A stretch of 34,854 nt of DNA from Synechococcaceae cyanobacterium (GTDB lineage Bacteria > Cyanobacteriota > Cyanobacteriia > PCC-6307 > Cyanobiaceae). Both the position numbers and the translations under genes were made by a program. Of the stretch, positions 1,462 through 31,510 are shown one piece after another (position 1 is the stretch's first letter; each line of letters opens with the position of its first letter). The DNA lies in contig CANHMF010000009.1 of assembly GCA_947461705.1 (NCBI GenBank), positions 1 to 34,854 of the forward strand. The letters run 5' to 3'. Below the pieces are notes generated by a model. That model was not told the origin of the DNA and did not search any database. It saw only the letters and a list, made by a program, of their open reading frames with translations.

Positions 1462-1497
1462 GCCCTGGGCCATCAGGGCAGGCCTGGCTGGCCAGGC
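1462..1497. repeat. Two short inverted repeats in the Usp/phosphatase divergent spacer
   Basis: The spacer between two divergent genes holds GCCCTG (1462-1467) with CAGGGC (1474-1479), and GCCTGGC (1482-1488) with GCCAGGC (1491-1497) around a two-base centre. The second reads as a near-palindrome suited to a dimeric regulator. There is no T tract, so this is unlikely to be a terminator. A role as an operator is inference only. Confidence 0.4.
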
Positions 1498-1501
1498 TCT
1501 A

Positions 1502-3505
1502 ATGGGTCATACGCTTAGGCCCTGTGCCATGCAGTCTCCGTGGCCTTCCCTCCGCCGGGTGCTCTGGGAAAGCCGTCCCTTACGCCAAAAGTTGGCCCTG
1601 GGGGTGTGGTTGTCCGTAGTGCCGATCTCCCTGGTGGCCTCCTTGGTGGCCCTGGAGAACGCCAAACGGGTGGTGGTTGGACAGTTGCAGCAGCAGCTGA
1701 TCTGGGATGCGGAACAGGCCAGCAGCTGGCTCTACTGGTGGGACAGCCAGCACCTGCGCACCCTGCAATTCAGTGCTGACTCCCCCGCAATCCGCAGCCT
1801 GCAGAACCAGGAGGCGAGTCAGGCCATGCAGGGCCTCGCGTCGATCTTTCCCAACTACAGCTACAGCCTGATTGAGCGCAACGGGGCATTAGTACACAGA
1901 TCCGGCCAGCTCACCGCCACGGAGGGCGAAACGATGAGCCAGTTGCTGAGGGATCCACACAGCTCCTATGCCAGGGCCCTGGCCGGCACTCCGACCAGCC
2001 GCCCCCTCGCCCCACCGCATGTGGCACTGCCCTGCATCGCCAGCAGCGTGCCCGTGTATCGCGGCAGCACAGCAGAAAAACCGCAAACCATCGGGGTACT
2101 GAGCAGCTGCCTGGCCCTCAGTGAACTGGGCTCTGTAACCGGCATCAACGAGCTGATCAAGGCCGCCTCGAACGGTCGCGGAGCGCTCCCCTTGATCGAT
2201 CTCGACCATGGCAAGCCTTACGGGTATGCCCTGATGCTGGTGATCGATCCCGGCAGCGCGATTCTGCTGGGCCAGCCCAATGCCAACCTTCAGGACCAGC
2301 TCCTGCTGCTCGATCCACACCGCAACCGCACCACCCAGTGGTGGCCCCTGATCCGCCTGGCCATGGCGGGGCGCACCACAACCAGCTTCGAGCGCATCCA
2401 GCTCAACGGGATCTGGTACTTCGTGGGAGTGGATCGCAGGATTGCCGGCCGGACCGTGCTGATGGTGCTCGATGAGCGCTCGGCCTTTGCCACCGTGAAC
2501 TCCCTGTTCACCTGGATCTGGCTGGGGAACCTGCTGGCCCTGGTGGTGAGCTCGTTGGCCATCCACCGAATCTGCGGAGCCCTCGCCAAACCTGTGGACC
2601 AGGCCGGTGAGGCCCTCTCGCGCATCAGCCACGGTGACTTTGGCGAGCCCCTCCCCACCGACAGCAGTGATGTGGGTCGCCTGTTCAACTATGTGAATCA
2701 GGCCTCCAGCCAGCTGCAGGCCTTTCTGGCTGACGCCAAGGCCCACGCCATCACGGACACCCAACTGGAAGAAGCGCGCCGGATTCAGGCGGACTTTCTC
2801 ATTCGCGATCTGCCCTCCAGCCCCCAGGTGGAGCTGGCAGCCATGTTCGATCCGGCCTACCAGATCGGCGCCGATTGGTACGACGCCCTGGAGCGGGATG
2901 GCGTTGTGTTCGTGGTGGTGGCCGACGTCTGCGACAAGGGAATTCCCTCTGCCCTGTACATGTCGGTGTTTCGCTCCCTGCTGCGGCTCAGCCTGGTGAA
3001 GGAGTGGGACCTGTGCCACGAGCCGTGCCGAGCCATCTGCCGCGCCATCGGCACGGTGAACACCTACATGGCCGAGACCCATGGCAGCACCGCCATGTTT
3101 GCCACGGCCTTCGTGGGGGCGTACGACCCCCAGCACCAGCAGCTGAGCTATGTGGTGGCGGGCCATGAGGCGCCCCTGGTGCTGCAGGGAGACCAGCTGC
3201 AGAGCCTCACCCTGGGCGGACCAGCCCTGGGCCTGTTCCGGGCGGCGACGTTCCAGCCAGGGCAATGCCAGCTGCAGGCGGGAGGCCTGTTATTCGCCTT
3301 CAGCGACGGTCTGCCCGATGCGCGCACCCCAACGGGCGAGTCGTTCGGGCAAGCCCGCATCGCCACCCTGCTGCAGACCAGGCCCTCCAACTGTTGGACC
3401 GCCGCAGAGTTGGTGCAGCGGTTCCGGCAGACCGTGCAGGAGCACATGGGCACAGCCGAACAGTTCGACGACCTCACCTTGCTGAGCCTGAAGGTGGGCG
3501 GCTGA
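1502..3505 (+). CDS. Membrane-bound PP2C-type serine phosphatase with HAMP domain (RsbU/SpoIIE family)
   Basis: A 667-residue sensor phosphatase. One membrane segment lies at about residues 31-51, an extracytoplasmic sensor region at about 55-333, a second membrane segment at about 336-356, HAMP at about 357-410 and a PPM/SpoIIE phosphatase domain from about 430 to the end. Metal-site motifs are visible: GADWYDAL near 455, VVADVCDKGIPSALYMS near 471, VVAGHEAPLVL, FAFSDGLPDA and the C-terminal FDDLTLL. Family members remove phosphate from anti-sigma-factor antagonists (STAS proteins), linking an external signal to sigma-factor or other output. No STAS or anti-sigma gene lies nearby, so the target is unknown. 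ATG 1502 is used; ATG 1529 is equally plausible and still precedes the first membrane segment. pgk follows on the same strand after 69 bases. Confidence 0.9.
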   Translation: MGHTLRPCAMQSPWPSLRRVLWESRPLRQKLALGVWLSVVPISLVASLVALENAKRVVVGQLQQQLIWDAEQASSWLYWWDSQHLRTLQFSADSPAIRSLQNQEASQAMQGLASIFPNYSYSLIERNGALVHRSGQLTATEGETMSQLLRDPHSSYARALAGTPTSRPLAPPHVALPCIASSVPVYRGSTAEKPQTIGVLSSCLALSELGSVTGINELIKAASNGRGALPLIDLDHGKPYGYALMLVIDPGSAILLGQPNANLQDQLLLLDPHRNRTTQWWPLIRLAMAGRTTTSFERIQLNGIWYFVGVDRRIAGRTVLMVLDERSAFATVNSLFTWIWLGNLLALVVSSLAIHRICGALAKPVDQAGEALSRISHGDFGEPLPTDSSDVGRLFNYVNQASSQLQAFLADAKAHAITDTQLEEARRIQADFLIRDLPSSPQVELAAMFDPAYQIGADWYDALERDGVVFVVVADVCDKGIPSALYMSVFRSLLRLSLVKEWDLCHEPCRAICRAIGTVNTYMAETHGSTAMFATAFVGAYDPQHQQLSYVVAGHEAPLVLQGDQLQSLTLGGPALGLFRAATFQPGQCQLQAGGLLFAFSDGLPDARTPTGESFGQARIATLLQTRPSNCWTAAELVQRFRQTVQEHMGTAEQFDDLTLLSLKVGG

Positions 3506-3574
3506 GGCCGCTTGTTCGGTTGGCCCCTTGACCCACCCGCTAAATTCGCCCGACCTGAACCCTCCTGCGACCCC

Positions 3575-7247: not shown

Positions 7248-7335
7248 CCGGGCAACCGGCTGCTGGCCCGACTGTATGGAGATGCGGGCGCCGGGTCAGC
7301 GGCAGAAGGATCTGGTCATACCTTCACGGCCCGGG

Positions 7336-7352
7336 GGCCACGGCCAGTGGCC
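7336..7352. repeat. Inverted repeat in the regulator/EF-hand divergent spacer
   Basis: GGCCAC (7336-7341) and GTGGCC (7347-7352) flank five bases in the 127-base spacer between the response regulator and the EF-hand gene. It sits about 25 bases before the EF-hand ATG, where a repressor or hairpin could act. No T tract follows. Such GC-rich repeats arise easily at this base composition. Confidence 0.3.
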
Positions 7353-7374
7353 AGGCACTCCATAGCCTTGGGCC

Positions 7375-7857
7375 ATGCGGGTGTTCCAGCCAGCCTTGTT
7401 CGCCTCCAGGCTCACTGCGGTGCTGGCCCTGGCCCTGCAGCCCCTGGCCTGGGCCCAGCCACTGCTGGCCCAGACCAGGGGCGAACTGGAGACCTACCAA
7501 CGGCGTCTGGAACAGCTGTTCGAACGCCTGGACAGCAATGGCGATCGACGCCTTACCCCGGCGGAAGTGCAGGGCCATCCCTACCTGCAGCGCCATTTCC
7601 AGCGCCTGGATCGCCAGGGCCGTGGCTATCTGGTGCCGGCCGACCTGAGCCCCGTCAACCCGAGCGTCCACGGGGAGCGGGCCCAGCAGTTCTTCACCTC
7701 GGCTGATCGCAACGGCAACGGCCGCATCGATCGCCAGGAGGCCGATGCCTACCCCTGGCTGGAGCGACGCTTCAACGCCATCGACAGCAATGGTGATGGC
7801 GGCATCAGCCGCGAAGAACTGATGAATCTGCGCAAGCGGCAAGCTGGCGGCTCCTGA
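7375..7857 (+). CDS. Secreted EF-hand calcium-binding protein
   Basis: A 160-residue protein with a signal peptide (hydrophobic core at about 12-28, likely cleavage near LAWA or LLAQ) and four EF-hand-like loops. Loop 1 is at 53-64 (DSNGDRRLTPAE), loop 2 at 79-90 (DRQGRGYLVPAD), loop 3 at 111-122 (DRNGNGRIDRQE) and loop 4 at 137-148 (DSNGDGGISREE). Loops 1, 3 and 4 have Asp at positions 1 and 3 (or Asp/Asn) and the bidentate Glu at 12. Loop 2 has Gln at 3, Arg at 5 and Asp at 12, so it probably binds poorly. A periplasmic or exported calcium sensor or buffer is likely. The next gene starts 13 bases downstream on the same strand. Confidence 0.9.
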   Translation: MRVFQPALFASRLTAVLALALQPLAWAQPLLAQTRGELETYQRRLEQLFERLDSNGDRRLTPAEVQGHPYLQRHFQRLDRQGRGYLVPADLSPVNPSVHGERAQQFFTSADRNGNGRIDRQEADAYPWLERRFNAIDSNGDGGISREELMNLRKRQAGGS

Positions 7858-10619: not shown

Positions 10620-10659
10620 GGCCGTTGCCCGTGATGTCCGCCTCGGACCTCCTGCGCCC

Positions 10660-10965
10660 ATGAGCCGCCTGAGCAGCGATGGCTGGGCCCTGGGGATCAC
10701 AGCCGGGCTACTGCTGATCCGCCAGGCCCTTAGCGGCGTGGATCTGCTGAGCCTTCTGATGCTGGTGCCCCTGCTGATCTGCCTGATCCCCAGCCTCGAC
10801 AGCCTGCAGGGCACGGGCACGATCCGCATCTGGGACCGTTGGCGGATGCGCTTCACGCCGATCGAGCGCAGCCGCCGCGCCTGGAGCTACTGGATCAATC
10901 TGGTGGTGAGCTGGCCGGCCGCAGGCTTCTTCGCCTACGCACTGGTGTTCATGCCGAAGCGGTAG
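10660..10965 (+). CDS. Small membrane protein of unknown function
   Basis: A 101-residue protein with hydrophobic segments at about 9-22 (short), 27-46 (LLSLLMLVPLLICLIPSL) and 77-96 (NLVVSWPAAGFFAYALVF). The amphipathic loop between the last two contains WDRWRMRFTPIERSRRAW. I do not recognise the family. It follows murG on the same strand and may be cotranscribed; its 3' end overlaps the convergent nucleotidyltransferase gene by 17 bases. No catalytic motif visible. Confidence 0.68.
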   Translation: MSRLSSDGWALGITAGLLLIRQALSGVDLLSLLMLVPLLICLIPSLDSLQGTGTIRIWDRWRMRFTPIERSRRAWSYWINLVVSWPAAGFFAYALVFMPKR

Positions 10966-11416
10966 GCGTCTCCGGCGTACAGGAGGGGTCGAAATCCTGC
11001 AGGGCCTCCACCACGACTGACTCACAGGGCGCCATAGTTGCAATGGTGTCTTCCAGGGCGGCCAGACGGCCCTCAAGCGCGGCCAACAGCGCCGGCCGGG
11101 GAGTGGGGAGCGCAAACGGACCCTCCTCATAACGGGCTCCAACAGCAAACACCTGCAGCTTCTGCCAGGCATCCGGCCAAACCTCACCGAGGCCACAGGC
11201 CAGATCAAGATCGGAATCAGCACGTGCCTCGCGGCGGCCACGGGACCCGAAGGCCACCAACGGCTGCACCTGAGGCTGGTTGCACAACGCCGCGAGCCCC
11301 TGCCGAAGCGGCCCCGCGTCACAGCCCGGGCCCAGATCAACGGCCTCCGGCAGGGGCTGGGGCTCCAGCCAGGGAGTGGCCGGCGCAACGAAACCCGTCG
11401 GTACGGATGTGGCCAT
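10949..11416 (-). CDS. Orphan nucleotidyltransferase-domain protein (MNT-like)
   Basis: A 155-residue protein with one clear hallmark, the polymerase-beta-superfamily motif VAFGSRGRREARADSDLDLAC. The Gly-Ser is at 57-58 and the two metal-binding Asp are at 69 and 71. Small proteins with this motif are often the MNT half of HEPN/MNT toxin-antitoxin pairs or free nucleotidyltransferases. Here there is no HEPN partner: the neighbours are a membrane protein and a CobD-like enzyme. The third catalytic Asp expected 30-50 residues later is not obvious in the following VFAVGARYEEGPFALP region. It may be a degenerate or specialised member. A roughly 50-residue N-terminal extension precedes the motif. 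Confidence 0.7.
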   Translation of the reverse strand: MATSVPTGFVAPATPWLEPQPLPEAVDLGPGCDAGPLRQGLAALCNQPQVQPLVAFGSRGRREARADSDLDLACGLGEVWPDAWQKLQVFAVGARYEEGPFALPTPRPALLAALEGRLAALEDTIATMAPCESVVVEALQDFDPSCTPETPTASA

Positions 11417-11454
11417 GGACCCGGGCTAGCGATGGTGCAGAGGGGTCCAACCGC

Positions 11455-12552
11455 TCAGCAGACCAGCGCCTGGCGCAGGGCCCGGATGATGCGGCCGTTG
11501 TTCCAGCGGCTCTGGTAGCCGATCCGCAACCAGGTGTCGCCGAGCCCCTCAAAGGAACGGCAATCGCGCACGAGGATCCTGTGCCCCTGCTCCAGCCGCT
11601 GGCGCAGGGAGTCGAGACTGGAAGGCTGAGCGTCCCGCTCACCGCGCACCAGCAAGTAGTTCGCGGCAGACGGCATCGGCTGCAGCCCAGGGATGGCCTG
11701 CAGCTGCTGCCGCAACCAGGCGCCCTCAGCAGCCACCCAGGCCTGCACGCGAGCGCACCAGTGGTCATAAAGGTGCGGCTGGCCCATCAAGGTCTCCCCA
11801 GCCGCCGCCGCCAGGCTGTTCACCGGCCAGGGGTCGCGCCAGGCGGCCCAGCGCCGCAGCCGTTGCGGATCGCCGAGGGCGTAGCCGAGCCGCAGGCCGG
11901 CAATAGCGAACAGCTTGGTGAGGCTGCGAATCACCACCAGATTGGGGTGATCGGCCAGCAGCGGCACCAGCGACTGCGCCTCACCGCCCGGCACCAGCGG
12001 CAGAAAAGCCTCATCGCAGATCACCAGCGCGAAGCGCTGGAGCAGTGCCTCCAGGCTGGCCCGGCTCCAGAGCTGCCCAGTGGGGTTATGGGGATTGGTG
12101 ATCCACACGGCCTGGGCTGAGCCGAGGTCGGCCGGCGGAAGTGGCGGCAAGATCGCCGAAGCCGCATCACACCAATCCAGCCGCAGGGGCCAGGACTCCA
12201 CCGGGGCCTCCCAGCAGCACAGGGCCCGCCGGTAGTCGGCGAACCCCGGCTGCGGCAACAGACTGGGGCCAGCGGCAGCGGCATCACGGGCCGCCCAGGT
12301 GAACAGCTCGGCGGCGCCATTGCCGGGCAGCACCGAGGCCGGATCCAGCCCATGCTGGGTGGCGATCACCGTGCGCAAGGCCTGGTAGCTGCGATCGGGG
12401 TAGGGCTTGAGAGCCGCCTGGCGCAGGGCCCGCCGGAGGAGCCGTGGCGGGGCGAAGGGCACGAGGGAGGCACTGGCATCGAGCAGCTGTCCAGGCCGGC
12501 AGCCCAAGCGCCGCGCCGCCGCATCGAGGTTGCCGCCGTGGAGCTCGGGCAC
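11455..12552 (-). CDS. cobD: CobD/CobC-like L-threonine-O-3-phosphate decarboxylase (PLP fold type I)
   Basis: A PLP enzyme of the histidinol-phosphate-aminotransferase-like group, about 365 residues. The opening VPELHGGNLDAAARRLG is typical of CobD/CobC, which make (R)-1-aminopropan-2-ol phosphate for the cobamide nucleotide loop. PLP motifs: GNGAAEL (77-83), NPHNPTG (153-159), Asp180 in VICDEAF, and the Schiff-base Lys213 in SLTKLFAIAGLRLGYALG. I use the GTG at 12552 because the open frame further upstream overlaps the divergent pentapeptide gene and reads as low-complexity sequence. A plain histidinol-phosphate aminotransferase is the main alternative, but the HGGN start argues against it. 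No other cobamide genes lie in the window. Confidence 0.8.
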   Translation of the reverse strand: MPELHGGNLDAAARRLGCRPGQLLDASASLVPFAPPRLLRRALRQAALKPYPDRSYQALRTVIATQHGLDPASVLPGNGAAELFTWAARDAAAAGPSLLPQPGFADYRRALCCWEAPVESWPLRLDWCDAASAILPPLPPADLGSAQAVWITNPHNPTGQLWSRASLEALLQRFALVICDEAFLPLVPGGEAQSLVPLLADHPNLVVIRSLTKLFAIAGLRLGYALGDPQRLRRWAAWRDPWPVNSLAAAAGETLMGQPHLYDHWCARVQAWVAAEGAWLRQQLQAIPGLQPMPSAANYLLVRGERDAQPSSLDSLRQRLEQGHRILVRDCRSFEGLGDTWLRIGYQSRWNNGRIIRALRQALVC

Positions 12553-12647
12553 AGGCGAGGCCTGGAAGTGGGCACCAGCCTGATGGATCGGGCCGGATCG
12601 ACGCCAACCGCCAAGACCGTTAGAACGGCGTACCCCTTGGCCAACCG

Positions 12648-13466
12648 ATGCCACGGCTGCATCGCCTGCTTCCCCTGACCCTGTGCCTGCCCCTGGCAAC
12701 CGGCATGGGGGCGATGCTGAATCGGCCTGCCCGAGCCGCCGATCCCCAGCAGCTGATCCAGCTGCTGGAGCAGCGGAGTTGCAAGGCCTGCAAGCTCCAG
12801 GATGCGGATCTGGTGCACGCGGATCTGCGGGATGCCCAACTGAATGGCGCCCAGTTGCAACGCGCGAACCTGAGTGGAGCCCAGCTCGATGGCGCGGATC
12901 TGCGGGGCGCCAACCTCAGGTTCACCAGCCTGGAAGGGGCCTCGCTGCGGGGGGCCGATCTGCGGGGCAGCGTGCTGGAAGGCACCGATCTGCGTCGCTC
13001 AGACCTCAGCGGGGCGCGCCTGGATCCCCAGGCCCTGAGCCGCAGCCACTGGCAACAGGCCCGCGGCATCGACCCCAGCCAGCAGAGCTACGCCGAGCTC
13101 CATAACGCGGGTGTGGCCGCCGCCCAACAGGGACGCCACCCCGAAGCCGAGACATTCTTCGGCGAGGCCATCCGCAAGCAACCCGATGCCGCCATCAGCT
13201 GGGTAGCCCGCGGCATCACCCGCAGCGAACAGGGCAACAACCAACTCGCAGCCCAGGATCTCAACTACGCCGCCTCGCTCTACCGGCAAGCCGGCGATCT
13301 GGACCAGGCCAGCGAACTGGAGAAGGCCTCCAAAGAACTACTGACGCCTCCAAAAAAGGCGAAGGGTGGCAATGGACTGGCCTCGCAGCTCGCCAGTGGC
13401 GCGATGGCGGCCTTCCAATTCCTGGCCCCGATCGCCGCAAAAGCCTTCATGCCAGCTGGATTTTAA
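12648..13466 (+). CDS. Secreted pentapeptide-repeat protein with TPR-like C-terminal half
   Basis: A 272-residue protein. It has a signal peptide (about 1-30, ending RPARA), then LLEQRSCKACKLQDADL, then about 15 tandem pentapeptides (about 50-125, consensus A[DN]LxG, for example GADLR, GANLR, GASLR). These should fold as a right-handed quadrilateral beta helix. From about 147 to 232 the protein changes to TPR-like helices (NAGVAAAQQGRHPEAETFF, WVARGITRSEQGNNQLAAQ), where a solenoid binding surface is likely. Signal peptide plus both repeat types suggests an exported scaffold. The Cys pair SCKAC often opens cyanobacterial pentapeptide domains. Its stop shares bases with the pilQ stop inside the palindrome TTTTAAAA at 13462-13469. 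Confidence 0.88.
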   Translation: MPRLHRLLPLTLCLPLATGMGAMLNRPARAADPQQLIQLLEQRSCKACKLQDADLVHADLRDAQLNGAQLQRANLSGAQLDGADLRGANLRFTSLEGASLRGADLRGSVLEGTDLRRSDLSGARLDPQALSRSHWQQARGIDPSQQSYAELHNAGVAAAQQGRHPEAETFFGEAIRKQPDAAISWVARGITRSEQGNNQLAAQDLNYAASLYRQAGDLDQASELEKASKELLTPPKKAKGGNGLASQLASGAMAAFQFLAPIAAKAFMPAGF

Positions 13467-14242
13467 AAAGCCGAACCTGCGGCTGGAGCAGCCAAGAAGC
13501 GACGCATATCAGGGGTGGCAGGCTGATATCCGTAGCCATAGGAGCCCCCATCCACGTCATCAACAATACGTGGGGTAACCAGGATTACAAGCTCATTTTT
13601 CTGACGAGCATTGGATGACGAGCGGAAAAACTGCCCCACAAAAGGCATGTCACCCAGGATCGGCCATTTGGTTACAGCCTGCCTGTCCTCATCGGCAATC
13701 ACGCCCGTGAGGATGAGAGTTTGGCCATCACGCACTCGAACTTCTCCCGTATCGAGACGTCGAACTCGCAAGATGCTGACATTGCCACAACCCTCAATCT
13801 GCTGCGGCGTGTCCGCCACCGCGGAAACAGCAGGAGAGAGCGAGAATGTCACGAACCCATTGTCGTCAATTTTTGATACCTTCGCCCCAAAAGTCAAGCC
13901 GGCAGTGCCAAATTTGGGCTGGCACGTATTCGGGGCGCCGTTCTGCCCCGCCTGCACGGTGTAATCGGTGATCACCTGCGTGCCGACGGTCACAAACGAC
14001 TCATTGGCAAAGGGTCTACCAATCGAAGCCGTATTCAACACGGCATTGTCGCCACCTGCAGCGCCAGCCGCAACCGCAGCTCCTCCCAGGATAGGCTCCG
14101 GATTTTCACTGAGAATCAGCGTGGGGCTTGCCAGGACTTTTGTGCTTTCAGACTGAATTTGAGCGCGAATCAGATCATAAAATCGATTGGGAGAGTAAGC
14201 CGCAGCCGGATTGATGGGAGCGGGCGCAAGAGGGGGCTGCAC
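13463..14242 (-). pseudogene. pilQ: pilQ, 3' part: secretin domain downstream of an in-frame stop
   Basis: This open segment encodes the C-terminal, outer-membrane secretin half of PilQ, the type IV pilus exit channel. It has RFYDLIRAQIQSESTKVLASP, then LILSENPEP, a strand-rich region, the signature VRDGQTLILTGVIADEDRQ, and VTKWPILGDMPFVGQFFRS with ELVILVTPRIVDD at the end. These are intact and well conserved, which argues that selection acted on it recently. It is in exactly the same frame as the upstream pilQ segment, separated by one TAG and 11 sense codons, so no frameshift is needed. A GTG at 14242 could restart translation but has no strong ribosome binding site that I can see. Local GC is far lower than in neighbours. 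Alternatives are readthrough, a separately started polypeptide, or a sequencing error. Confidence 0.82.
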
Positions 14243-14275
14243 AACGCTTTCGTCATTTCTTGGAACATAAATAGG

Positions 14276-14278
14276 CTA
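14276..14278 (-). other. In-frame TAG stop within pilQ
   Basis: On the minus strand the codons run GGA GCT AGC AAT GCA TAG CCT ATT TAT, and the frame continues without another stop to 13463. The stop falls in a poorly conserved, Gly/Ser/Pro-rich linker between the N3/early secretin strands and the RAQIQ...ASPTLIL strand. A CAG-to-TAG (Gln) or TGG-to-TAG (Trp) change would each be a single substitution. Confidence 0.9.
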
Positions 14279-15865
14279 TGCATTGCTAGCCCCTCCACTT
14301 AGGAGATCAAACTGACCAGACCCAGGCGGGAGCCTATCGTTAAATGCTCCGATCATCCTCCCATCTTCACTCACAATAAAATTACTGCCATAGCGAAAGG
14401 CGAAGCTATTTTTGATGTCGGCATCATTACGCAGCGTCACGTCCAGGATCTTCACCGACAAGGCCACCTGCCGTTGGCGCAGGTCGATTTGCTTGAGGTA
14501 GTTCTCAGCCACGGCAACCACCTGCGGGTCTCCCACCAGAGTGATGGTCTGCAAGCGGGAATCCGTGGTGCCCGTAAGTCCCTTCAGTGGACCGGTACTG
14601 GCGCCATAGGTCTCAGTGGTGGTAATCCTCTGGGTCTGGGTCTGCTGTGAATCGGGCGCTCCCGCAACCTGGCTGGCCTGAGACTGGCCCTGGCTCACGG
14701 TGTTGGTGATGAGTGTCACCTTGGTGATCTTGGCCCCAAGGCTGGCCAGATAATCTGCCGCCGAGGCTGCGGTGGCCTGATTGAGGCGATAAACCTTGGA
14801 CAGCTGGGCCCCAAAAGTTTTTCCCAAGACCGATGGACCCGCCAGAATCATGTTTCCCTCGAGCTTGCCCTGCAGACCCGCGGCAAGCAGTACAGAATTG
14901 ATGGCTCTGGCGTAACTTTCACCACGAAAAGAAATCGAAACTGGACGCCCCTGCGCAGCGGCGACTGCCCCAGTGCCGGTGGCCGCTCCCGCCGGCGAAG
15001 TGCCTGTGGGCGGGTCATCATCCACATAGACAAACCCATAGCCACCCATCTGGGCCAAGGCCATCAACACATCACGGGCCGGGGCATTGCGCATCGTCAT
15101 GGAGACAGCCGGCCCATTCACATGGAGAAAACTGCGATTGCGCAGCACCATGCTTCCCACTGCCATATCCCCCAGCGGTGGCGCCACAGCTCGAGGCTGC
15201 AGCAGCGGGGCATAACTGGGCTGCGGCACGGCGCCCGGTGTGCGCAGATCCAGGCGCGCGGTCTGTTCAGATATCTGGGGCGCCGTGGCAAAGCTGATCA
15301 CCAGGTTGCGACCATCGGCACTCACCACGGGCCGGCCCAAGGGCGCACCCGGCATCGGCTCCACGAGAACTTGGTAGGTGTTGCCCGAACCCTGAAAGCT
15401 CACCAGCTGCAATCCAGCCTCCGGGAGCGACAGCCGCTGGGGGCCCAGCCGCAGACCAGAGGGCGTGGCCGTGCGCAACTGCCCAGCCCAGCCACCACCG
15501 GCCGTGGTGCCCTGTTGCAGCACGGGTGCCGGCCCCGTGCCCGCAATCACAATCTCCACAGCCCCGGCACTACGGCGCAGGCTGAGGGCCAAAGGGCCAC
15601 TTCCAGTGGCAGACGCCGGTTGAACCGGCAGTGGCACCGCCTGCACAGAAGCGCCACTCCGGGGCGCCGCCTGCAGCGGGTTCGTTGCAACGCCTGCCGC
15701 CAGCAAGGCCAGGATCAGGCGGCGACGACCACGAACCACCACGCTTGAGAACACCAGGGTTTTGGGCGGATGGTAACGGTGCTCACCACTGACCACCAGT
15801 GCGCCGCTGCCTGGGTCAGGGCGGGGTTGGGGCTCGAGGAGCCGGGGGCTCACCGGCCTTGGCAT
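14276..15865 (-). CDS. pilQ: PilQ, 5' part: periplasmic domains and first secretin strands, ending at an in-frame TAG
   Basis: A 529-codon segment of the type IV pilus secretin. It has a hydrophobic signal region near residues 48-62 (RRLILALLAAGVATN, cleavage near LQAA), AMIN-like strands at about 80-210, an STN/N0 domain near 252-287 (VSMTMRNAPARDVLMALAQM, FVYVDD), and N1-type KVYRLNQATAASAADYLASLG. A Gln/Thr-rich variable segment, LVGDPQVVAVAENYLKQIDLRQRQVALSVKIL and the start of the secretin domain follow. It stops at TAG 14276. Alone it lacks the secretin core and could not form a normal pore. The ATG at 15865 overlaps pilO by 50 bases and gives a long non-hydrophobic leader; GTG codons nearer residues 24-45 would place the signal peptide closer to the N-terminus. 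Confidence 0.88.
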   Translation of the reverse strand: MPRPVSPRLLEPQPRPDPGSGALVVSGEHRYHPPKTLVFSSVVVRGRRRLILALLAAGVATNPLQAAPRSGASVQAVPLPVQPASATGSGPLALSLRRSAGAVEIVIAGTGPAPVLQQGTTAGGGWAGQLRTATPSGLRLGPQRLSLPEAGLQLVSFQGSGNTYQVLVEPMPGAPLGRPVVSADGRNLVISFATAPQISEQTARLDLRTPGAVPQPSYAPLLQPRAVAPPLGDMAVGSMVLRNRSFLHVNGPAVSMTMRNAPARDVLMALAQMGGYGFVYVDDDPPTGTSPAGAATGTGAVAAAQGRPVSISFRGESYARAINSVLLAAGLQGKLEGNMILAGPSVLGKTFGAQLSKVYRLNQATAASAADYLASLGAKITKVTLITNTVSQGQSQASQVAGAPDSQQTQTQRITTTETYGASTGPLKGLTGTTDSRLQTITLVGDPQVVAVAENYLKQIDLRQRQVALSVKILDVTLRNDADIKNSFAFRYGSNFIVSEDGRMIGAFNDRLPPGSGQFDLLSGGASNA

Positions 15866-16520
15866 AGAGGCCGAGGTTGAGCTTCAAGCTGGTTTGCCCG
15901 CGCCGGGTCTGGGACGCCTTCGCCCCCTGCTCTGGGGGCTCCGCCTTCAGGCTCAGATCGCTCTGCACCACCAGCAGGCTCAAGGCCTCCAGGCGCCTCA
16001 GGAAATCCTGCAGTTGGGGAGCTGTGCCCCGGGCCGTGAGCAGCAGGGTGGTTTTCTCCAGGCCTGGTGCCAGCAGCGGATCCACCGGCCGGGGCACCTC
16101 CTTCTGCGGCCCCTTGCTCTGCGCGGCACCTCCCTTCGGCTCGGGCTCCACCTGGGTCACCACGGGCTCATAGCCATCCAACTGCACGCCGCTGCGCTGG
16201 GCCTCCACGGCCAGCTGGGTCATGAAGGTGGAGATCTCGCCGCTGCCGGCAATCAGCCCCAGGACCCGCCCCCGCCTGGCCTGGCCTTGCTCCTCGTTCT
16301 CCAGGGCCTTGGCGATCTGGCTGCGCAGCAGGGGCAGGCGCTGCTGCTGCTCATGCAGCTGACTGAGCTCCAGCTGATCCTGCTGCAGCCGCCGCCAGGC
16401 GGGCCACACCAAGCCGGCTGCCACTCCCAGAGCCAGCAGCAGCCCCAGCAGAGCCGGGGCAGCCAGCAACACCTGCTGCCGGCTAGGCCGGGGCTGGGCT
16501 CCGGGAGTGAGGTTGGTCAT
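15816..16520 (-). CDS. pilO: Type IV pilus inner-membrane alignment protein PilO
   Basis: A 234-residue bitopic protein. It has a short cytoplasmic N-terminus, a membrane helix at about 17-40 (VLLAAPALLGLLLALGVAAG), a coiled-coil stretch (about 43-80, QDQLELSQLHEQQQRLPLL), then a ferredoxin-like periplasmic domain with TLLLTARGTAPQLQDFLRR and LSLLVVQSDLSLKAE, typical of PilO/GspM-like proteins. The linker at about 127-145 is rich in Pro, Lys and Gln, as in other cyanobacteria. PilO pairs with PilN to link the PilM ring to the outer-membrane channel. The ATG overlaps the pilN stop (ATGA), and the 3' end overlaps pilQ if the latter starts at 15865. Confidence 0.88.
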   Translation of the reverse strand: MTNLTPGAQPRPSRQQVLLAAPALLGLLLALGVAAGLVWPAWRRLQQDQLELSQLHEQQQRLPLLRSQIAKALENEEQGQARRGRVLGLIAGSGEISTFMTQLAVEAQRSGVQLDGYEPVVTQVEPEPKGGAAQSKGPQKEVPRPVDPLLAPGLEKTTLLLTARGTAPQLQDFLRRLEALSLLVVQSDLSLKAEPPEQGAKASQTRRGQTSLKLNLGLYAKAGEPPAPRAPTPP

Positions 16521-17227
16521 GGCAGCACCCCCGCCCGGGCCAGCACCTGCAGGCGCCTGGCCATGCCATCGGCGCCCAGCCGCTGCAGCAGGCTGAGCTG
16601 GGCCGCGGGGCTGAGCTGGGCAAACTCGGCCGCCAGCTCCCAGGCCACCGGCGGCACAGCCCCTGTCGCGGCTGTGCCGCCCGCCTCCTGCTCCCGGGCC
16701 AACTTGAGCACCCGCACGCTCTTGGCCACAAACAACGGCGATTGCTTCAACAGCAACTGCAGGGCATTCACCCGCCGAAAGGCCTCCGGATCCCGGGCCA
16801 CGCCCTTGAGCTGCAGGGCCGAACCGGTCACCACCGCCTCCGTGAGCTGCACCCCCTCGGGGGTGATCGCCGCCAGCTCCGTCACCAGGGCCGAGCCGGA
16901 GGACACGGCCACCAGCCCCTTAGCCAGGGCCGCATTGCTGGCCTGCACCTTGCGCAGCCGCAGCCGCGCGGCCTGGGCCTGGGCTTCCAGGCCACGTACG
17001 GCGGCGGGGATGGCCCGCAGGCCCTCGAGCTCCGCCGACACCTGACCCTGGCGCACCCCCAGCAAGGCCCACACCAGCAGGGCCGCCCCCACAGCCCCGA
17101 GGCCCGCAGCAGCACCGATCAGCAGCAACCGCCGAGCCGGCACCAGGGCTGGGGCCTCAGGCGGCAGCCCCCGCTCAAGGCGCCGCTGGTGCAGCAGATC
17201 CAGGGATCCCGGCAGCACCCCGCTCAT
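16517..17227 (-). CDS. pilN: Type IV pilus inner-membrane protein PilN
   Basis: A 236-residue bitopic protein: cytoplasmic N-terminus MSGVLPGSLDLLHQRRLERG (the segment expected to dock into PilM), membrane helix at about 33-57, a helical stretch, then a periplasmic domain with LVTELAAITPEGVQLTE and LKGVARDPEAFRRVNAL, matching the PilN family core. The last 50 residues (VAWELAAEFAQL, LLQRLGADGMARRLQVL) extend beyond the usual domain. The ATG at 17227 overlaps the pilM stop as ATGA, so coupling is likely. An upstream extension of the same frame is only a shadow of pilM. Confidence 0.88.
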   Translation of the reverse strand: MSGVLPGSLDLLHQRRLERGLPPEAPALVPARRLLLIGAAAGLGAVGAALLVWALLGVRQGQVSAELEGLRAIPAAVRGLEAQAQAARLRLRKVQASNAALAKGLVAVSSGSALVTELAAITPEGVQLTEAVVTGSALQLKGVARDPEAFRRVNALQLLLKQSPLFVAKSVRVLKLAREQEAGGTAATGAVPPVAWELAAEFAQLSPAAQLSLLQRLGADGMARRLQVLARAGVLP

Positions 17228-18168
17228 GGGCTCAGCTCCGCCAACGCCAGCCCCCAGAGCCCCAGCAGCTCCACCCCAGCCGGCGTTGCGCTGGATCGGG
17301 CCACCTCCGCGGACTGCAACCATCCCAAGGCCAGAGGATCCACCACCATGGCCGGAGCGTCCAGCTCCAGGGCCGCGGCCAAGCCTGGGGCGGCCGCCAG
17401 GGGGCCATGCAACAGCACCTGCAGGTCCGCCGCTCCGGGATCCTGCTGGCGCCAGAAGCTCAGGCACTGGCGGATCTGCGCGGCCAGCGCTGCGGGCTCG
17501 AGGGCAGCGGGCCAGCGCCGCTCATACACCGGCAGACCCTGACGCACCAGCAGTAGCTGGCTGGCCTGGGCACCCAGCTCCACCAAAGCCGTGAGCTGAT
17601 CAGCGGGAGCATCGCGCAGCAGCGGCTCCAGCCCACGGCACAGACACAGGGGCGCGGCCTCCAGCCCATCCAGCGCCACACCCGCCGTGGCGAACACCGC
17701 AATCCAGGCCTCCAGCAGATCGGCTGGCACCGCCACCAGCAGCGAGGTGGGAGGTTCCAGCGCCAGCGGCACCAGCCGCAGATCAGCCTCCTGGAGGGGA
17801 ACCGGCAGGGCCAGCGGCTCCTGGCGCTCCAGCAGCACGGCCTCGGGATCAGCAGGCCATTGGCCGCCTGGCCACTGCACCAGCCGGCAGTGGCTGGCCG
17901 CCGCTGGCAACAGGGCCCGCACATGGGCCAGGGCCCACCCCCGTTCAATCAGCAGATCGCCGATCAGATCGCCAAGGGCCTCGGGCTGCTGGGGATCGCC
18001 CCCCTGGCACAGGCCTTCAGGCAGTGGAATGCGCTCGAGCCACACCACCTGGCCGTGACGCAGGGCCATGGCCGTGATGGCCTGATCGCCCAACTCCAGG
18101 AGCACGCGCCTGGGGAATAACCAGGCCTGCAAGGGGGCCAGACGCTCCTGAACTCCAGCGAGCACCAA
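17224..18168 (-). CDS. pilM: Type IV pilus actin-like assembly ATPase PilM
   Basis: A 314-residue actin/FtsA-like protein that heads the pilMNOQ operon. Strands such as RVLLELGDQAITAMALRHGQVVW near the start, SLLVAVPADLLEAWIAVF in the middle, and TALVELGAQASQLLLVRQG (the phosphate-2-like loop) are what remain of the actin-fold motifs. Overall it is diverged from textbook PilM, so the call leans on fold-like motifs plus position directly before pilN and pilO. The start is a TTG at 18168 or the adjoining GTG at 18165; no ATG lies near. It would form the cytoplasmic ring that contacts PilN. It lies 43 bases from the pyrD stop. Confidence 0.82.
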   Translation of the reverse strand: MVLAGVQERLAPLQAWLFPRRVLLELGDQAITAMALRHGQVVWLERIPLPEGLCQGGDPQQPEALGDLIGDLLIERGWALAHVRALLPAAASHCRLVQWPGGQWPADPEAVLLERQEPLALPVPLQEADLRLVPLALEPPTSLLVAVPADLLEAWIAVFATAGVALDGLEAAPLCLCRGLEPLLRDAPADQLTALVELGAQASQLLLVRQGLPVYERRWPAALEPAALAAQIRQCLSFWRQQDPGAADLQVLLHGPLAAAPGLAAALELDAPAMVVDPLALGWLQSAEVARSSATPAGVELLGLWGLALAELSP

Positions 18169-18211
18169 CGCCCTTGACTCCCATCTACCGGCAAGTTATC
18201 GCCGAAATCAC

Positions 18212-19372
18212 CTACTGCCAGGGCACACCACTGCCCACCGCCTCGCTGATGTTGCGGAAGCCATGGCGATCGAGCTGCTGACTCAGGCCCTCAAGGATCG
18301 CTGGCACCAGCTCGGGGCCGGCATAAATCCAACCCGTGTAGAGCTGAATCAGCGAGGCACCGGCCGTGATCCGCTCCCAGGCCGCCTCCGGGGAATCGAT
18401 CCCGCCCACGCCAATCAGGGGCAAGCCAGGCCCAGCGGTGACTCGCAGCCGCCGCATCACCTCCAGGGCCCGGGCCCGCAGGGGGGCGCCGCTGAGGCCA
18501 CCGGCTTCTTGGGCGAGGGTCTTGCCGCTCTGGGCGATGCGGCGCCCCTCCAGTCCTAGGCGGTTGAGACTTGTGTTCACCGCAATCAACCCGGCCAGGC
18601 CCTCCTCGTAGGCCAGGCGGGCAATCGCATCGATGGCCTCATCCTCCAGGTCGGGGGCGATCTTCACCAGCAACGGCGGGCAAGCCGGCAGCCGCCGCAG
18701 GCGCTCCACCAGCCGCCGCAGCTGGCTCTCGTCCTGCAACTCGCGCAGGCCTGGCGTGTTGGGAGAGCTCACGTTGATCACGGCGTAGTCCGCCAGCGAC
18801 GCCAGCAGCTCCAGGGAGGAGGCGTAGTCGTCGGGCGCCAGATCCAGGGGCGTGATCTTGGATTTGCCCAGGTTGATGCCGAGCACGGCCGGCCGCTGAC
18901 CAGCGGGTGGCAACCCCTGGCGCTCCAGGGTGCGCCGCGCCGCCTCGGCCCCATTGTTGTTGAACCCCATCCGATTCAGGGCGGCCCGCTCCGCCGCCAG
19001 GCGAAACAGGCGCGGCTTGGGATTGCCCGGCTGGGGATGCCAGGTGATGGTGCCCACCTCGGCAAAGCCGAAGCCGAACTGGTGCCAGATGCCAGCCGCC
19101 ACGGCGTTCTTGTCGAATCCAGCCGCCAGTCCGACGGGATTGCTGAAGCGGCAGCCGAACAGGGTCTGCTCCAGCCGCAGGTCGCGGCGCTGCAGCTGGG
19201 CACCGAGCCCGGCCAGGCTGCCGCTCACCAGGGGCCAGTGGCGCCGCAGCGAGGCCTGGCCGAGGGCGGTGAGCGTGAGTTGGCTCAGCTGCTCGGCGTC
19301 AGCGCCATCATCACGACTGAGCAGCGGCCCAACGAAACGCTGATAGAGGGCACCGGTTCCAGCCTCAGCCAT
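18212..19372 (-). CDS. pyrD: Dihydroorotate dehydrogenase (quinone), class 2
   Basis: Oxidises dihydroorotate to orotate in pyrimidine synthesis, passing electrons to quinone at the membrane. The 386-residue protein has the class 2 N-terminal helical region ([25 protein letters not shown]), [13 protein letters not shown], the FMN motif [29 protein letters not shown] carrying the class 2 catalytic Ser, [42 protein letters not shown] and [14 protein letters not shown] choose ATG 19372 because GGGG lies about 10 bases upstream of it; ATG 19381, three codons earlier, is the alternative. It overlaps the end of rnhA by 8 bases, so rnhA and pyrD are coupled. Confidence 0.96.
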
Positions 19373-20144
19373 GGCCTTCATCCCCGCTGCTCGCGTCACC
19401 CGATCCTGCCGCGCCACGCTCCAGGCGCCAGCGGCCGTCAGCCGAGGGCACCACAGTCCAATCCCGCCAGGGCCAGGGGCCCTGCTTGGCCTCCAGCTTC
19501 TTGAGCGGCATCCCCACCAGCTGGGCCAGCTCCACCAGGCTGAGCCCGTAGCCACCGGCCGCCAGTCGATCGGCCACCTCCAGGCGGCTGAGCAACTGCT
19601 GCAGGGCCGGTGGCGCAGGCTCGGCCGCGGCCGCAGGCTCGGGCAGCACCAGGCCGCCGTACTCGCCATGGGCCAGCTGCGGCTTGCCCCCCTTGGAGAA
19701 GGCCACGGCGATGGCATCGCAGCGGTCGTTATCGGGATCGCCGCTGTGGCCCTTCACATAGGTGAAGGGCAAACCGGCGATGCGGGCGGCATCCAGGGCC
19801 TCCCACAGGTCGCGGTTAAGCACGGGGCTGCCAGAGGCCGTGCGCCAGCCCTTGCGCTTCCAGCCGCTGATCCACTTGCTGAAGCCATCGATCAGGTATT
19901 TGCTGTCGGTCCGGATTGTCAGCTCCGGATGGCGGGGAAGCGTCTTGAGCTTCTCCAGCAACGTGAGGGCGGCAGCGAGCTCCATCCGGTTGTTGGTGGT
20001 GGCCGGGTCGTGGGCCCCGAATTCCTGCACCGAGCCGTCTTCGAAGCGCAGCAGGCATCCCCAGCCACCGGGCCCCGGATTGCCGCTGCAGGCACCATCA
20101 CAGGCGGCGGCCACCACCCGCGGGGATTGCGGCTTAGATGCCAC
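19365..20144 (-). CDS. rnhA: Ribonuclease HI with C-terminal HTH-like extension
   Basis: Cleaves RNA in RNA-DNA hybrids (R-loops, Okazaki primers). Residues 8-152 form a complete RNase HI domain: Asp16 in [16 protein letters not shown], Glu55 in [10 protein letters not shown], Asp80 in [30 protein letters not shown] (basic handle), His133 in [14 protein letters not shown], and Asp143. The protein is 259 residues against about 150 for the family. The extra part has an Ala/Pro linker (165-180), then [38 protein letters not shown] (HTH-like) and [18 protein letters not shown] (about 226-243). This may add nucleic-acid binding; that is inference. It is first in the rnhA-pyrD operon and is divergent from the DUF3747 gene. 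Confidence 0.95.
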
Positions 20145-20206
20145 TGGGCTGCTCCAACAAAATCCGGTACAACGCGTTACTCCGGCGGCGTCGAGGACAC
20201 CACTCC

Positions 20207-20902
20207 ATGAAGCGAACCTACCTGGCCTCCCTGGGCCTCTCCCTCGCCGGCGTCACGGCCGCGGCCCTGCAGCCCCAGGCCCTGGCGGCTGGCCTGTTCA
20301 GCAGCCAGCCCCTCGATGGCGCCCGCTTCGCGGTGCTGGGCAAGCCCGTGGGCCGCACCGACTGGACCCTGCTGGTGCTCGAACAAATTGCTGCCACACC
20401 GCGCTGCTGGGAACCCCGGCCCGATGGCCTGGTGGATCCCAGCCTCAACCGCTTCGACTTCACGGGCATCTGTAGCCGTTACCTGGACAGCAACGGCTAT
20501 TCGCTGCGCATCGGCCAGGACGATCTCGCCACCAGCTACCGGCTGCGGCTGCAGCAGCAGGGCACCAGCCTGCGGCTGCTGGCCATGAGCCCCAGCCAGG
20601 CCAGCGAGATGCTGGTGGGCCGCGGCACCGTGAACCAGCGGGATCGCGATGGCTTCGTGCCCATCAGCCTCGAACCCGGCTGGACCCTGGAGCGCCGGGT
20701 GTACGGCAGCCAGACCCTCAGCCACATCTATTTCGCCAACGGCACCCCCCTGGCCCAGTTGCTCGCCGCCAGCCAGACCGTGGCCAGCACCAACAGCGTG
20801 CCGCTGCGCCCGCTCACCCCGCCACTTGGCAACAACAACGACGACAACGGCCGCTTCAGCCAGGGCCCGATCGCCCTCCAGGTGATCCCCTTCCGGGAGT
20901 GA
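20207..20902 (+). CDS. DUF3747-like secreted protein
   Basis: A 231-residue protein with a signal peptide ([20 protein letters not shown], cleavage near ALAA at about 28). The mature part has [60 protein letters not shown] and [10 protein letters not shown], a pattern I associate with DUF3747, a family common in cyanobacteria with no known function. Two Cys (RCWEP and GICSRY) could form a disulfide outside the cytoplasm. A Asn/Asp-rich tail ([10 protein letters not shown]) precedes the end. It is divergent from rnhA across 62 bases and followed by a small-RNA-like region. Confidence 0.85.
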
Positions 20903-22166: not shown

Positions 22167-22282
22167 AGGAAGTGGAACGGATCGGGGGAACAAGCCGGGT
22201 ACGCGGCCCTAGGACACCGGGAAGGTGGCGAGGCCGCTGCATGCTCCGCTCCCGATCAGGACCGAAATCCCTAGGGGCAAAA

Positions 22283-23680: not shown

Positions 23681-23836
23681 ACTCCCCGAGGGGAGTGCGG
23701 GACTGCACTCCGGAATGGAGTGCGGGAGGACACTGTCTACACGAGAGAGTGCTGCGGATCGCCGACCCAGGGTCGGCGCTGCGGCAGGTTCCGGAACGGA
23801 GCCCGCTAAGGCCGCCCTCCGCAGGGAGGCGGCCGC
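23681..23836 (-). repeat. Cluster of inverted repeats in the nusG-rplK spacer
   Basis: The 181-base spacer has hairpins at 23681-23696 (ACTCCC/GGGAGT), 23705-23723 (GCACTCC/GGAGTGC), 23761-23777 (GCCGACCC-like arms) and about 23812-23836 (GGCCGCC/GGCGGCC, next to the nusG stop). The 11-base word GGAGTGCGGGA occurs twice, at 23692-23702 and 23717-23727. None is followed by a clear T run. This suggests a structured rplK leader rather than a plain terminator; possibly the L1 control site. Confidence 0.6.
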
Positions 23837-23842
23837 AGGTGG

Positions 23843-24517
23843 TCAGCTCTGTTTGCTGATCTGGGAGAACTCGAGCTCCACCGGGGTCTCGCGGCCGAAG
23901 ATCGAGAGCAGGGCCTTGAGCTTGTTGCGCTCGCCGGACACCTCGATGACCTCGCCCTGGAAGTCCTTGAACGGGCCAGCCGTCACCAGGATCTGATCGC
24001 CCTCGGTGAGGTCGACCTTCACCACGGGCTTCTTCTCGGCGGCGCGCTTGAAGATGCGATCCACTTCCTGGCGGCTGAGGGGCCGGGGCTTGATGTGGCC
24101 GCGGGCCTTGCCGGTGGCACGGCGCTCTTCCGCCCCTACGAAGTTGATGACGTTGGGGGTGCTGCGCACGGCCATCATCGTGTCCTCATCCAGCACCATG
24201 CGCACCAGCACGTAGCCGGGGAACACCTTCTCCTCGGTGCTGGTGCGGTTGCCGTCCTTCTTGATCTTCACCGCCGGGGTCTGGGGGATCTCGATCTCGA
24301 GGATGCGGTTGTCCACGCCGAGGGTCACGGCGCGCTGCTCCAGGGTGGCCTTCACCTTCTTCTCGCAGCTGGAGGCCACCTGAACGGCGTACCAGCGGGC
24401 CACGGGCGCCCGACCCTCGGCCGGGGCAGCAGCGGCGGCCAGATCCAGCACGGCCTCGCCGCCGTCAACCGGATCGGCAGAGGGGGATTCGTCAGTGATC
24501 AGGTCGACGTCGGACAC
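23843..24517 (-). CDS. nusG: Transcription termination/antitermination factor NusG
   Basis: Binds RNA polymerase and modulates pausing, termination and transcription-translation coupling. The 224-residue protein has the NGN domain (ARWYAVQVASSCEKKVKATL from about 40, KVFPGYVLVRMVLDEDTM, VINFVGAEERR) and a C-terminal KOW domain (EGDQILVTAGPFKDFQGEV, KLKALLSIFGRETPVELEF). The first 38 residues are acidic and Ala-rich and precede the conserved part, a common cyanobacterial extension. The start is a GTG at 24517 (MSDVDLITDE), 42 bases after secE. Confidence 0.97.
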   Translation of the reverse strand: MSDVDLITDESPSADPVDGGEAVLDLAAAAAPAEGRAPVARWYAVQVASSCEKKVKATLEQRAVTLGVDNRILEIEIPQTPAVKIKKDGNRTSTEEKVFPGYVLVRMVLDEDTMMAVRSTPNVINFVGAEERRATGKARGHIKPRPLSRQEVDRIFKRAAEKKPVVKVDLTEGDQILVTAGPFKDFQGEVIEVSGERNKLKALLSIFGRETPVELEFSQISKQS

Positions 24518-24559
24518 AGGGCGTGGGAAGGGAGGTATGGGGGACAGACAGCTGGAGAC

Positions 24560-24823
24560 TCAGCGGAACACCTGGGTGTTGGCCCAGCTGTAGAAGCGAT
24601 CGATCGCGGCGATGGCAAAGGCCGACAGCGTCACCATCAGGATCACAGCCACCGACTCACTGAACAGCTGCTGGCGGCTGGGCCAGACCACTTTGCGGAG
24701 CTCCTCCACGGTGGAGGCCACAAAACCGGGCTTGGCCGCGTCGCTGGACGGTGCCATGGCGCTGGCTGGCTCGGCGGAGGACGCCGGATCAGCGGCTGGG
24801 CGTGGGTCGGTCTGGGAGTCCAC
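24560..24823 (-). CDS. secE: Preprotein translocase subunit SecE
   Basis: The essential small subunit clamping SecY. The 87-residue protein is of the short, single-helix type: Ala/Pro/Ser-rich N-terminus, then GFVASTVEELRKVVWPSRQQ, the conserved amphipathic segment, then one membrane helix (about 57-75, SVAVILMVTLSAFAIAAID). A GTG at 24823 gives the full frame; ATG 24757 (MAPSSDAAKPGF) is an alternative that still keeps the conserved part. It begins 62 bases after the clpB stop and leads into nusG, the usual secE-nusG-rplK order. Confidence 0.95.
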   Translation of the reverse strand: MDSQTDPRPAADPASSAEPASAMAPSSDAAKPGFVASTVEELRKVVWPSRQQLFSESVAVILMVTLSAFAIAAIDRFYSWANTQVFR

Positions 24824-24885
24824 TCAGGGGGGTCGCCGGGATGTTCAGGCAGCCACAGGGCGGCATGAACAAGCAAACAGCCACC

Positions 24886-27654
<2,769 letters not shown>

Positions 27655-29488: not shown

Positions 29489-31162
29489 TCAGCCGCCTGC
29501 GCCCGGCAGCTTTTCCAGACGGCTGTCACGGCGCAGGCGCGCCTGCAACTTGAGCCAGCTCAGCCCCACCGGCAGCCCGCACACCAGGGGGATGGCGGTG
29601 AGGGCTGGGCGGGTGCTGGCCGCCAACAGGGCCGCCGCCACTGCCAGAGCCCCTAGCAACACCGCCTGACCGGCGGTCTGCTGGCTCAGGGCCAGGCGGC
29701 GCAGCAGGCGATCGGTTTCCCCAGCACGGATCTGCACCTGCAGGTCGCCCTGCTCGATGCGCGAGAGGCTGTCCTCCAGCCGCTGGGGCAAGCCGAGGGC
29801 CCGGGTGCCCACTTCCACGGCCTGACGGCCCAGCTGGTTGAAGAGTTCGTTGGGCCCGTTACCGCTGGCAGTCATCAGGGGCAGTAGGTAAGGACGGGCA
29901 ATGGCCACCAGGCTAAAGCCGGGATCGAGGCTGCGGCCCACCCCCTCGAAGGTGGAGAGGGCGCGCATCACAAAAATCAGCTCGGGCGGCAGGCGGAAGG
30001 GCTGGCCGTACACGAGGTCATAGAGGTCCCCCGACAACTTGGCGATCACGTTGGAGGAGAAGGGCGGGGTGAGGGCCTCCGTGAGCATCAGGCGCACCAG
30101 CCGCCGCACCGGGCCCACATCGATGCCCTCGGCGATCACCCCGGCGGCCTGCAGCTCCCGCACGAGGGAGGAGGCATCGCGAGCGGCGGCGGCCGTCACC
30201 ATCCGTCCCAGCCGGCTGCGCAGTCGCTGGGAGATCTGCCCCATCATCCCGAAGTCGTAGTAGATGAGGGCGCCATCGGTCGCCACCGCGAGATTGCCGG
30301 GGTGGGGATCGGCATGGAAAAAGCCGAAGCGCACCAGCTGCTGGAGGTAGCTGGCGGCCCCCTTCTCCGCCACCGCCGAGGGATCGATGCCGGCCTCGAT
30401 CAGCGCCGGGCGGTCGGTGATCTTGATGCCGGGCAGGTAGTCGAGGCACAGCACCCGGCGGGTGCTGAGTTCCCACACCACGGCCGGCACGCGAATGCCC
30501 GGGTCGTCGAGAAACTGCTGGCGAAACCGGGCGGCATGCTCCGCCTCCACGCGGAAATCGAGCTCCCGCAGCAGCACCCGCCGGCATTCCTGGGCAATGG
30601 ACACCCAGTCGCGGCCCACACCCCAGCGGGGGTGCCGCTGCAGCACGGCCGCCACCTGCTGCAGCACCTCGAGATCCAGGCGAAACAGGCGTTCCAACCC
30701 GGGGCGCTGAATCTTGAACACCACCTGCCGACCGCTGCGCAGGCTGGCCCGGTGCACCTGGGCCAGGCTGGCGGCCCCCAGGGGAAGCACCTCGAGATCC
30801 ACAATCTCAGCGCAACGCTCCCCCAGCTCCTGCTCCAGCAGCGCCTGCGCCGTGCTGAAGGGGAAGGAGGGCACCTGATCCTGCAGGTGCGCGAGTTCCT
30901 CCACGTAGCCGGCCGGCAGCACATCCGGCCGGGCAGACAGCAACTGGCCCAACTTGATGAAGGCCGAGCCCAGCTGCAGCAGCTCAGCGGTGAGCCAGCG
31001 GGCGCGACGGCGCTGGCGGGCGGCGCGCCTGTCGTCGCTCACGCCACCGGGGTAGGTCCAGCTGGCGGCATCCCACCAGAGGCCGAGCAGCAGCTGCAGC
31101 ACCGCGCGCCAGATACGCAGGGAGCGCCCGAGGCCCCTCAACCCATGCAGCAAACCGCGCAT
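29489..31162 (-). CDS. UbiB/ABC1 family atypical kinase-like protein
   Basis: A 557-residue member of the ABC1/ADCK/UbiB family, which in cyanobacteria and plastids acts in prenylquinone metabolism and membrane homeostasis. Hallmarks: the KxGQ motif in FIKLGQLLSARPDVLP (about 68-83), VLPLGAASLAQVHRA (Ala-rich loop), VFKIQRPG with the catalytic Lys, ELDFRVEAEHAARF (ExD), the catalytic loop FFHADPHPGN and YYDFGMMG. Two hydrophobic segments near the C-terminus (AVLLGALAVAAALLAA and ALTAIPLVCGLPVGLSWL) likely anchor it to a membrane. The ATG shares one base with the preceding stop (TGATG). Substrate unknown. Confidence 0.94.
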   Translation of the reverse strand: MRGLLHGLRGLGRSLRIWRAVLQLLLGLWWDAASWTYPGGVSDDRRAARQRRRARWLTAELLQLGSAFIKLGQLLSARPDVLPAGYVEELAHLQDQVPSFPFSTAQALLEQELGERCAEIVDLEVLPLGAASLAQVHRASLRSGRQVVFKIQRPGLERLFRLDLEVLQQVAAVLQRHPRWGVGRDWVSIAQECRRVLLRELDFRVEAEHAARFRQQFLDDPGIRVPAVVWELSTRRVLCLDYLPGIKITDRPALIEAGIDPSAVAEKGAASYLQQLVRFGFFHADPHPGNLAVATDGALIYYDFGMMGQISQRLRSRLGRMVTAAAARDASSLVRELQAAGVIAEGIDVGPVRRLVRLMLTEALTPPFSSNVIAKLSGDLYDLVYGQPFRLPPELIFVMRALSTFEGVGRSLDPGFSLVAIARPYLLPLMTASGNGPNELFNQLGRQAVEVGTRALGLPQRLEDSLSRIEQGDLQVQIRAGETDRLLRRLALSQQTAGQAVLLGALAVAAALLAASTRPALTAIPLVCGLPVGLSWLKLQARLRRDSRLEKLPGAGG

Positions 31163-31476: not shown

Positions 31477-31510
31477 GGCAGGCCATTGGGGATGGCCAAA
31501 CTGTGGCAGA

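Follow-up and report, generated by a model that had tools for sequence, protein, structure and literature searches.

An in-frame TAG splits pilQ in a draft picocyanobacterial genome and lies in a segment divergent from its nearest relative

The minus strand of the window (the whole stretch of 34,854 nucleotides analysed here) carries a pilQ frame with one in-frame TAG, and the reading frame is unchanged on both sides of it. This stretch is contig 9 of a Synechococcaceae cyanobacterium genome of 2.24 Mb, assembled in 187 contigs, 89% complete and with 2.67% contamination. The source is probably a picocyanobacterium of freshwater type, and the fragmentation of the assembly suggests that it came from a metagenome. 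The question raised by this locus is whether the cell has lost its outer-membrane pilus channel, still makes it by an unusual route, or has an intact gene that the draft misrepresents. We lean, with somewhat better than even confidence, toward a null allele of pilQ that arose recently by a nonsense change and leaves a PilQ without its pore; we infer three of its components, namely the presence of the TAG in the living cell, the abolition of piliation and selection favouring the stop.

The interrupted gene and its identity

The first-pass annotation described pilQ as split by a single TAG without a frameshift, and this description holds: the open reading frame from 15865 encodes 529 residues and is ended by the TAG at 14278-14276, after which 270 sense codons follow in the same frame up to a TAA at 13465-13463 (Table 1). 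Its claim of a conserved secretin core past the TAG is likewise borne out. The Pfam Secretin domain (PF00263; 105.6 bits, E=2.8e-30) is located wholly past the TAG, and Secretin_N (PF03958; 48 bits) lies in the part before it. A search of 60 genomes with the 270 codons matched PilQ in 47, including the genome of the window itself, and the match in G006 has E=6e-159; the parts before and after the TAG are 90% and 88% identical, respectively, to the PilQ of that genome. Since these downstream codons match PilQ elsewhere and hold PF00263, the open frame past the TAG is not a product of chance. Conversely, when the intact G006 protein was compared with 25 genomes of the genus, 21 were matched, and the match in the window ran end to end with one TAG. 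Comparison of the codon in relatives, which the first-pass annotation had proposed, found no stop at the TAG column in any of 14 PilQ proteins (copies readable in one frame at the loci examined, broken copies being excluded): nine have lysine, one arginine, one proline and three no residue. Relative to its intact orthologues the gene carries a disabling change, as expected of a pseudogene.

The minus-strand order pyrD-pilM-pilN-pilO-pilQ, followed by a convergent pentapeptide-repeat gene, is identical in G006, which together with G007 is the nearest relative among the compared genomes. With pilM-like, pilN and pilO-like genes immediately upstream of pilQ, the locus has the composition of a pilMNOQ operon. 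Read with X at the stop, the protein scored 81.5 bits against the NCBIfam PilQ model TIGR02515, below its cut-off of 284.35, and the GspD (97.8) and MshL (82.1) models were likewise under their cut-offs. The name PilQ is thus given from operon position and close orthologues, for a predicted secretin of the pilMNO operon and not for a scored member of TIGR02515.

The start at ATG 15865 assumed in the first-pass annotation is doubtful. With this start pilQ would share 50 bases with pilO, whose end is at 15816, and in G006 the frame does not open until well past the equivalent point, shortly before the residues that match window position 15763. Three of the four start candidates (GTG 15754, GTG 15742 and GTG 15739) are in frame directly ahead of a hydrophobic, signal-peptide-like stretch, and on sequence they are more likely starts than ATG 15865. 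Given their position ahead of this stretch, the truncated product is probably 487-492 residues long, about 50 kDa. The choice of start alters the predicted length of the fragment and changes nothing else; the full-length protein has a computed mass of about 78-83 kDa, depending on the start.

Table 1. Features of the pilQ locus in window coordinates.
Feature	Position	Strand	Remarks
In-frame TAG within pilQ	14276..14278	-	No other in-frame TAG in the pilQ matches from 25 genus genomes
pilQ 5' part: probable signal peptide (by eye) and periplasmic part including Secretin_N PF03958	14279..15754	-	
pilQ 3' part: 270 sense codons and TAA, secretin pore domain PF00263	13463..14275	-	
Length-variable PilQ loop containing the TAG	14200..14345 (approximate bounds)	-	Loop shorter or of different length among relatives
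Divergent pilQ segment (~1.5 kb, about 15000-13460)	13466..15001	-	Synonymous codon difference to G006 0.47 vs 0.17 in the 5' part
pilO-like gene, open	15816..16520	-	GspM model match under cut-off; no Pfam match
pilN, open	16517..17467	-	PF05137
pilM-like gene, open	17224..18168	-	TIGR01175 3.2e-9, under cut-off; no Pfam match

Whether the TAG acts as a stop

It had been proposed that full-length PilQ might be made by readthrough of the TAG. Low or regulated readthrough, with full-length protein produced conditionally, would agree with the strong constraint on the same-frame sequence past the TAG, and an RNA stem across the TAG is somewhat more stable than its shuffles (z -1.66; 13 of 200 as good), a stem that is not kept in G006 when its codons are read by eye. 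The other evidence points away from it. RF1 is present (prfA, 475.8 bits; cut-off 423.25). A tRNA search gave 38 hits, 37 of them above the family cut-off; ARAGORN read 30 fetched hits and one neighbour, then six more, and none of these 37 tRNAs has a CTA anticodon, although in a genome 89% complete a tRNA could have been missed. From the single hit below the cut-off ARAGORN gave no tRNA. The stop is missing in the 14 aligned relatives, and no further TAG was found in pilQ across the 25 genus genomes. The 100 nt 3' of the TAG are no more stably folded than their shuffles (z 0.25; 115 of 200 as good), and a search for Rfam families in 13000-16500 returned none. We therefore consider readthrough very unlikely, and programmed recoding was rejected because RF1 is present, a CTA tRNA and an Rfam or downstream structure were not found and the stop is not shared. 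In 24 chosen window genes, among which pilQ was entered by its final TAA, the stops are TGA in 17, TAG in five and TAA in two. TAG is an ordinary stop in this genome, and basal readthrough of it may still occur.

A second proposal was a separately started secretin fragment from GTG 14242. The open reading frame exists, as this in-frame GTG opens 259 codons encoding a chain of 27 kDa; what does not follow is its arrival at the outer membrane. Secretins are exported by means of an N-terminal signal. A chain beginning within the loop would carry no such signal and is thus not expected to reach the outer membrane. A split gene, whose halves would be translated as two chains (with a restart near GTG 14242) that then assemble, is scarcely credible, also because pilQ is one open frame in 13 of the 21 genus genomes with a match.

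The proposed PilQ without a pore domain is supported by the position of the Pfam Secretin match. Under a nonsense null allele, translation would end within the loop, before the pore-forming domain is reached, leaving the cell with no more than an N-terminal periplasmic piece of PilQ and without an outer-membrane channel for the pilus. Type IV pili and pilus-dependent DNA uptake would be expected to be lost, and resistance to any phage using the pilus might follow. The cells are probably unpiliated, and the consequences for phage and competence are plausible. According to a review, PilQ is the pore in the outer membrane through which both the pilus and incoming DNA pass, and mutation of pilB or pilQ in Nostoc punctiforme abolishes exopolysaccharide (PMC12288463).

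pilQ is the only broken gene among the pilus genes examined. In the same genome PilB (98% identical to that of G006 over the 420 residues compared), two more ATPases of the PilB/PilT family, PilC and three N_methyl pilin-type hits all gave matches free of internal stops.

Age of the lesion and the divergent segment

Compared with G006 by the NG86 method, the part of pilQ before the TAG has dN 0.055 and dS 0.50, and the part after it has dN 0.075 and dS 1.64, a rough value since dS above 1 is near saturation. When the 32 differences past the TAG were polarised by the majority of 13 outgroups, two were derived in the window, five in G006 and four in both, and 21 received no assignment. Among the 83 columns past the TAG that are invariant in the outgroups, the window retains 82 and G006 81. 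Relaxed constraint past the TAG was thus looked for against G006 and the outgroups, and no excess of change was found; the sequence is still under constraint. With no decay past it, the TAG would be either very young, or absent from the living cell as an artefact of the draft genome, or not acting as a stop.

The TAG falls inside a part of pilQ that is unusually divergent from G006. From about 15001 to the end of the gene, 47% of the codons for the same residue differ from G006 vs 17% in the 5' part, a ratio of 2.8, and the breakpoint statistic was reached in 0 of 2000 permutations, in which every fourth breakpoint was tried. By the same measure, 14 of 15 other window genes lie at 11-22%, and the pentapeptide gene adjoining pilQ at 26%. 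In bins of 250 bases, identity to G006 is 87-97% over 15751-20750 and 89-91% over 12501-13250, but only 74-86% between 13251 and 15000, with a further low bin (82%) at 15501-15750. Within the segment, the window and G006 are about equidistant from G004, G007 and G024. A donor was sought in 400 family genomes, taken from a larger group, and none among the matches listed was closer than G006, the best DNA matches outside the window's genome being G006 at 80% and G004 at 76% over part of the segment. Given the excess of synonymous divergence, most of the secretin-encoding part was probably replaced by a diverged copy in one lineage, either that of the window or that of G006. The location of the TAG within this segment is compatible with a young mutation in one or the other allele and with the merging of strains during assembly.

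The window differs from G006 at other places too. Identity is low at 7251-7750 (79-83%) and 11251-11500 (81%), and drops to 68-74% in a patch at 31501-32000, between argJ and the gene at 31162-31767, where most surrounding bins exceed 90%. At 1469-3523, just upstream of pgk, the window has 2 kb with a gene for a SpoIIE-type phosphatase of 667 residues (PF07228), against just 57 bases at this place in the syntenic contig of G006. A further 580 bases (10646-11225) are missing at the syntenic place in G006.

An assembly or consensus artefact is the serious rival to a null allele. Co-occurring strains may have been merged, or a base miscalled at the divergent loop, the living cells having an intact pilQ. 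The draft state and contamination of the assembly are in keeping with this, as is the position of the TAG where co-assembled strains could merge, and an artefact would give the same constraint in the downstream half as that observed. However, the frame is kept over both halves, so that just one base would be wrong, and no other evident gene is interrupted when the window is set against the open frames of the syntenic G006 contig. The other stop-bearing frames are antisense to evident genes (pilMNO, the gene at 11455-12699, nusG) or weak chance matches, or have their stops upstream of a gene start (L10; the gene at 58-1056). On these grounds three candidate lesions were rejected: the frames at 11482-12645 and 23810-25069 run antisense to the gene at 11455-12699 and to nusG, respectively, and the L10 gene begins only downstream of the stops near 22200. 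We regard an artefact as possible, with distinctly less than even confidence, and a loss-of-function allele as the most likely reading.

pilQ lesions in the genus and known systems

Among the 21 pilQ matches in the genus, 13 are open, two run off contig ends (G002, G018) and six are interrupted: by the TAG in the window's genome (G000), by frame breaks in G008, G016 and G017, by a deletion in G012 and by a split into two parts in G013. The four genomes of the 25 without a pilQ match are 62-84% complete. The two parts of pilQ in G013 (L093, L037) are 1.45 Mb apart; the break falls in the variable loop that holds the TAG in the window, and the C-terminal part abuts the end of its contig. This split may reflect a rearrangement or a misjoin. 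Several of the other lesions sit in drafts, and some may be assembly errors. G383, a genome from a different genus in the family, shows a frame change in this loop too (L143, about 2566-2585), and in the family genome G157 the frame changes later. Apparent stops in G097, G167, G198 and G383, among the family matches listed, were dismissed on re-alignment, none being inside the matches.

As a control, PilB gave a near-full match in one piece in 20 of the 25 genus genomes, with a stop, a TAA, in one of the 20 (G012). In G021 it lies on two contigs, and G001, G010, G018 and G022 gave paralogues, a fragment or nothing. Interruption thus stands at 6 of 19 for pilQ, with the contig-end cases excluded, vs 1 of 20 for pilB, in a small sample and with a query of 420 residues for PilB vs 748 for PilQ.

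Counting the stop reported here together with the frame breaks, deletion or rearrangement in five other genus genomes, the secretin half of pilQ could be a turnover hot spot in freshwater picocyanobacteria, where diverged alleles are recombined and the gene is knocked out repeatedly under fluctuating selection, for example by phage. We hold this to be doubtful. The divergent segment and the repeated pilQ lesions in the genus are the more interesting part of the result. If the TAG is real, the window catches a natural picocyanobacterial population in the course of losing its pili through one base change, with the remaining pilus genes examined still open. Of marine picocyanobacteria, one in four reportedly encode a pilus, which aids suspension and avoidance of grazers and has been suggested to offer phage binding sites, raising the risk from phage (PMC7994388). 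Given these pilus roles in suspension, grazing and phage infection, variation between on and off states of pilQ would amount to a trade-off that can be tested.

A pilQ nonsense null is a known class of change and an ordinary event in a gene, and none in a picocyanobacterium appeared among the titles and abstract openings covered by a literature search. In gene order and domain order the window resembles the cyanobacterial PilQ of the pilMNOQ operon in G006, and differs from it in that its copy has an in-frame TAG and the G006 copy is open. A natural pilQ lesion also occurs in G012, which is a single contig. In G012 the damage is broader: the pil operon lacks pilO and the N-terminus of pilQ through a deletion from pilN into pilQ, pilM has a frame break, the in-frame TAA in pilB was confirmed and no N_methyl pilin hit was found (degraded pilus genes at L033 3200-5140 and L153), whereas the window shows a single affected codon and no interruption in the other pil genes examined. 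Because several pilus genes are broken in this one-contig genome, loss of pili within the genus is credible. A further parallel is the pilQ Q428* allele of Pseudomonas aeruginosa, described as selected by a pilus-targeting phage (PMC13170266). Although that allele came from laboratory phage selection and the one in the window is known from sequence alone, in both cases a nonsense codon falls late in pilQ and leaves a truncated secretin, in P. aeruginosa one of 46.3 of 77.4 kDa (PMC13170266).
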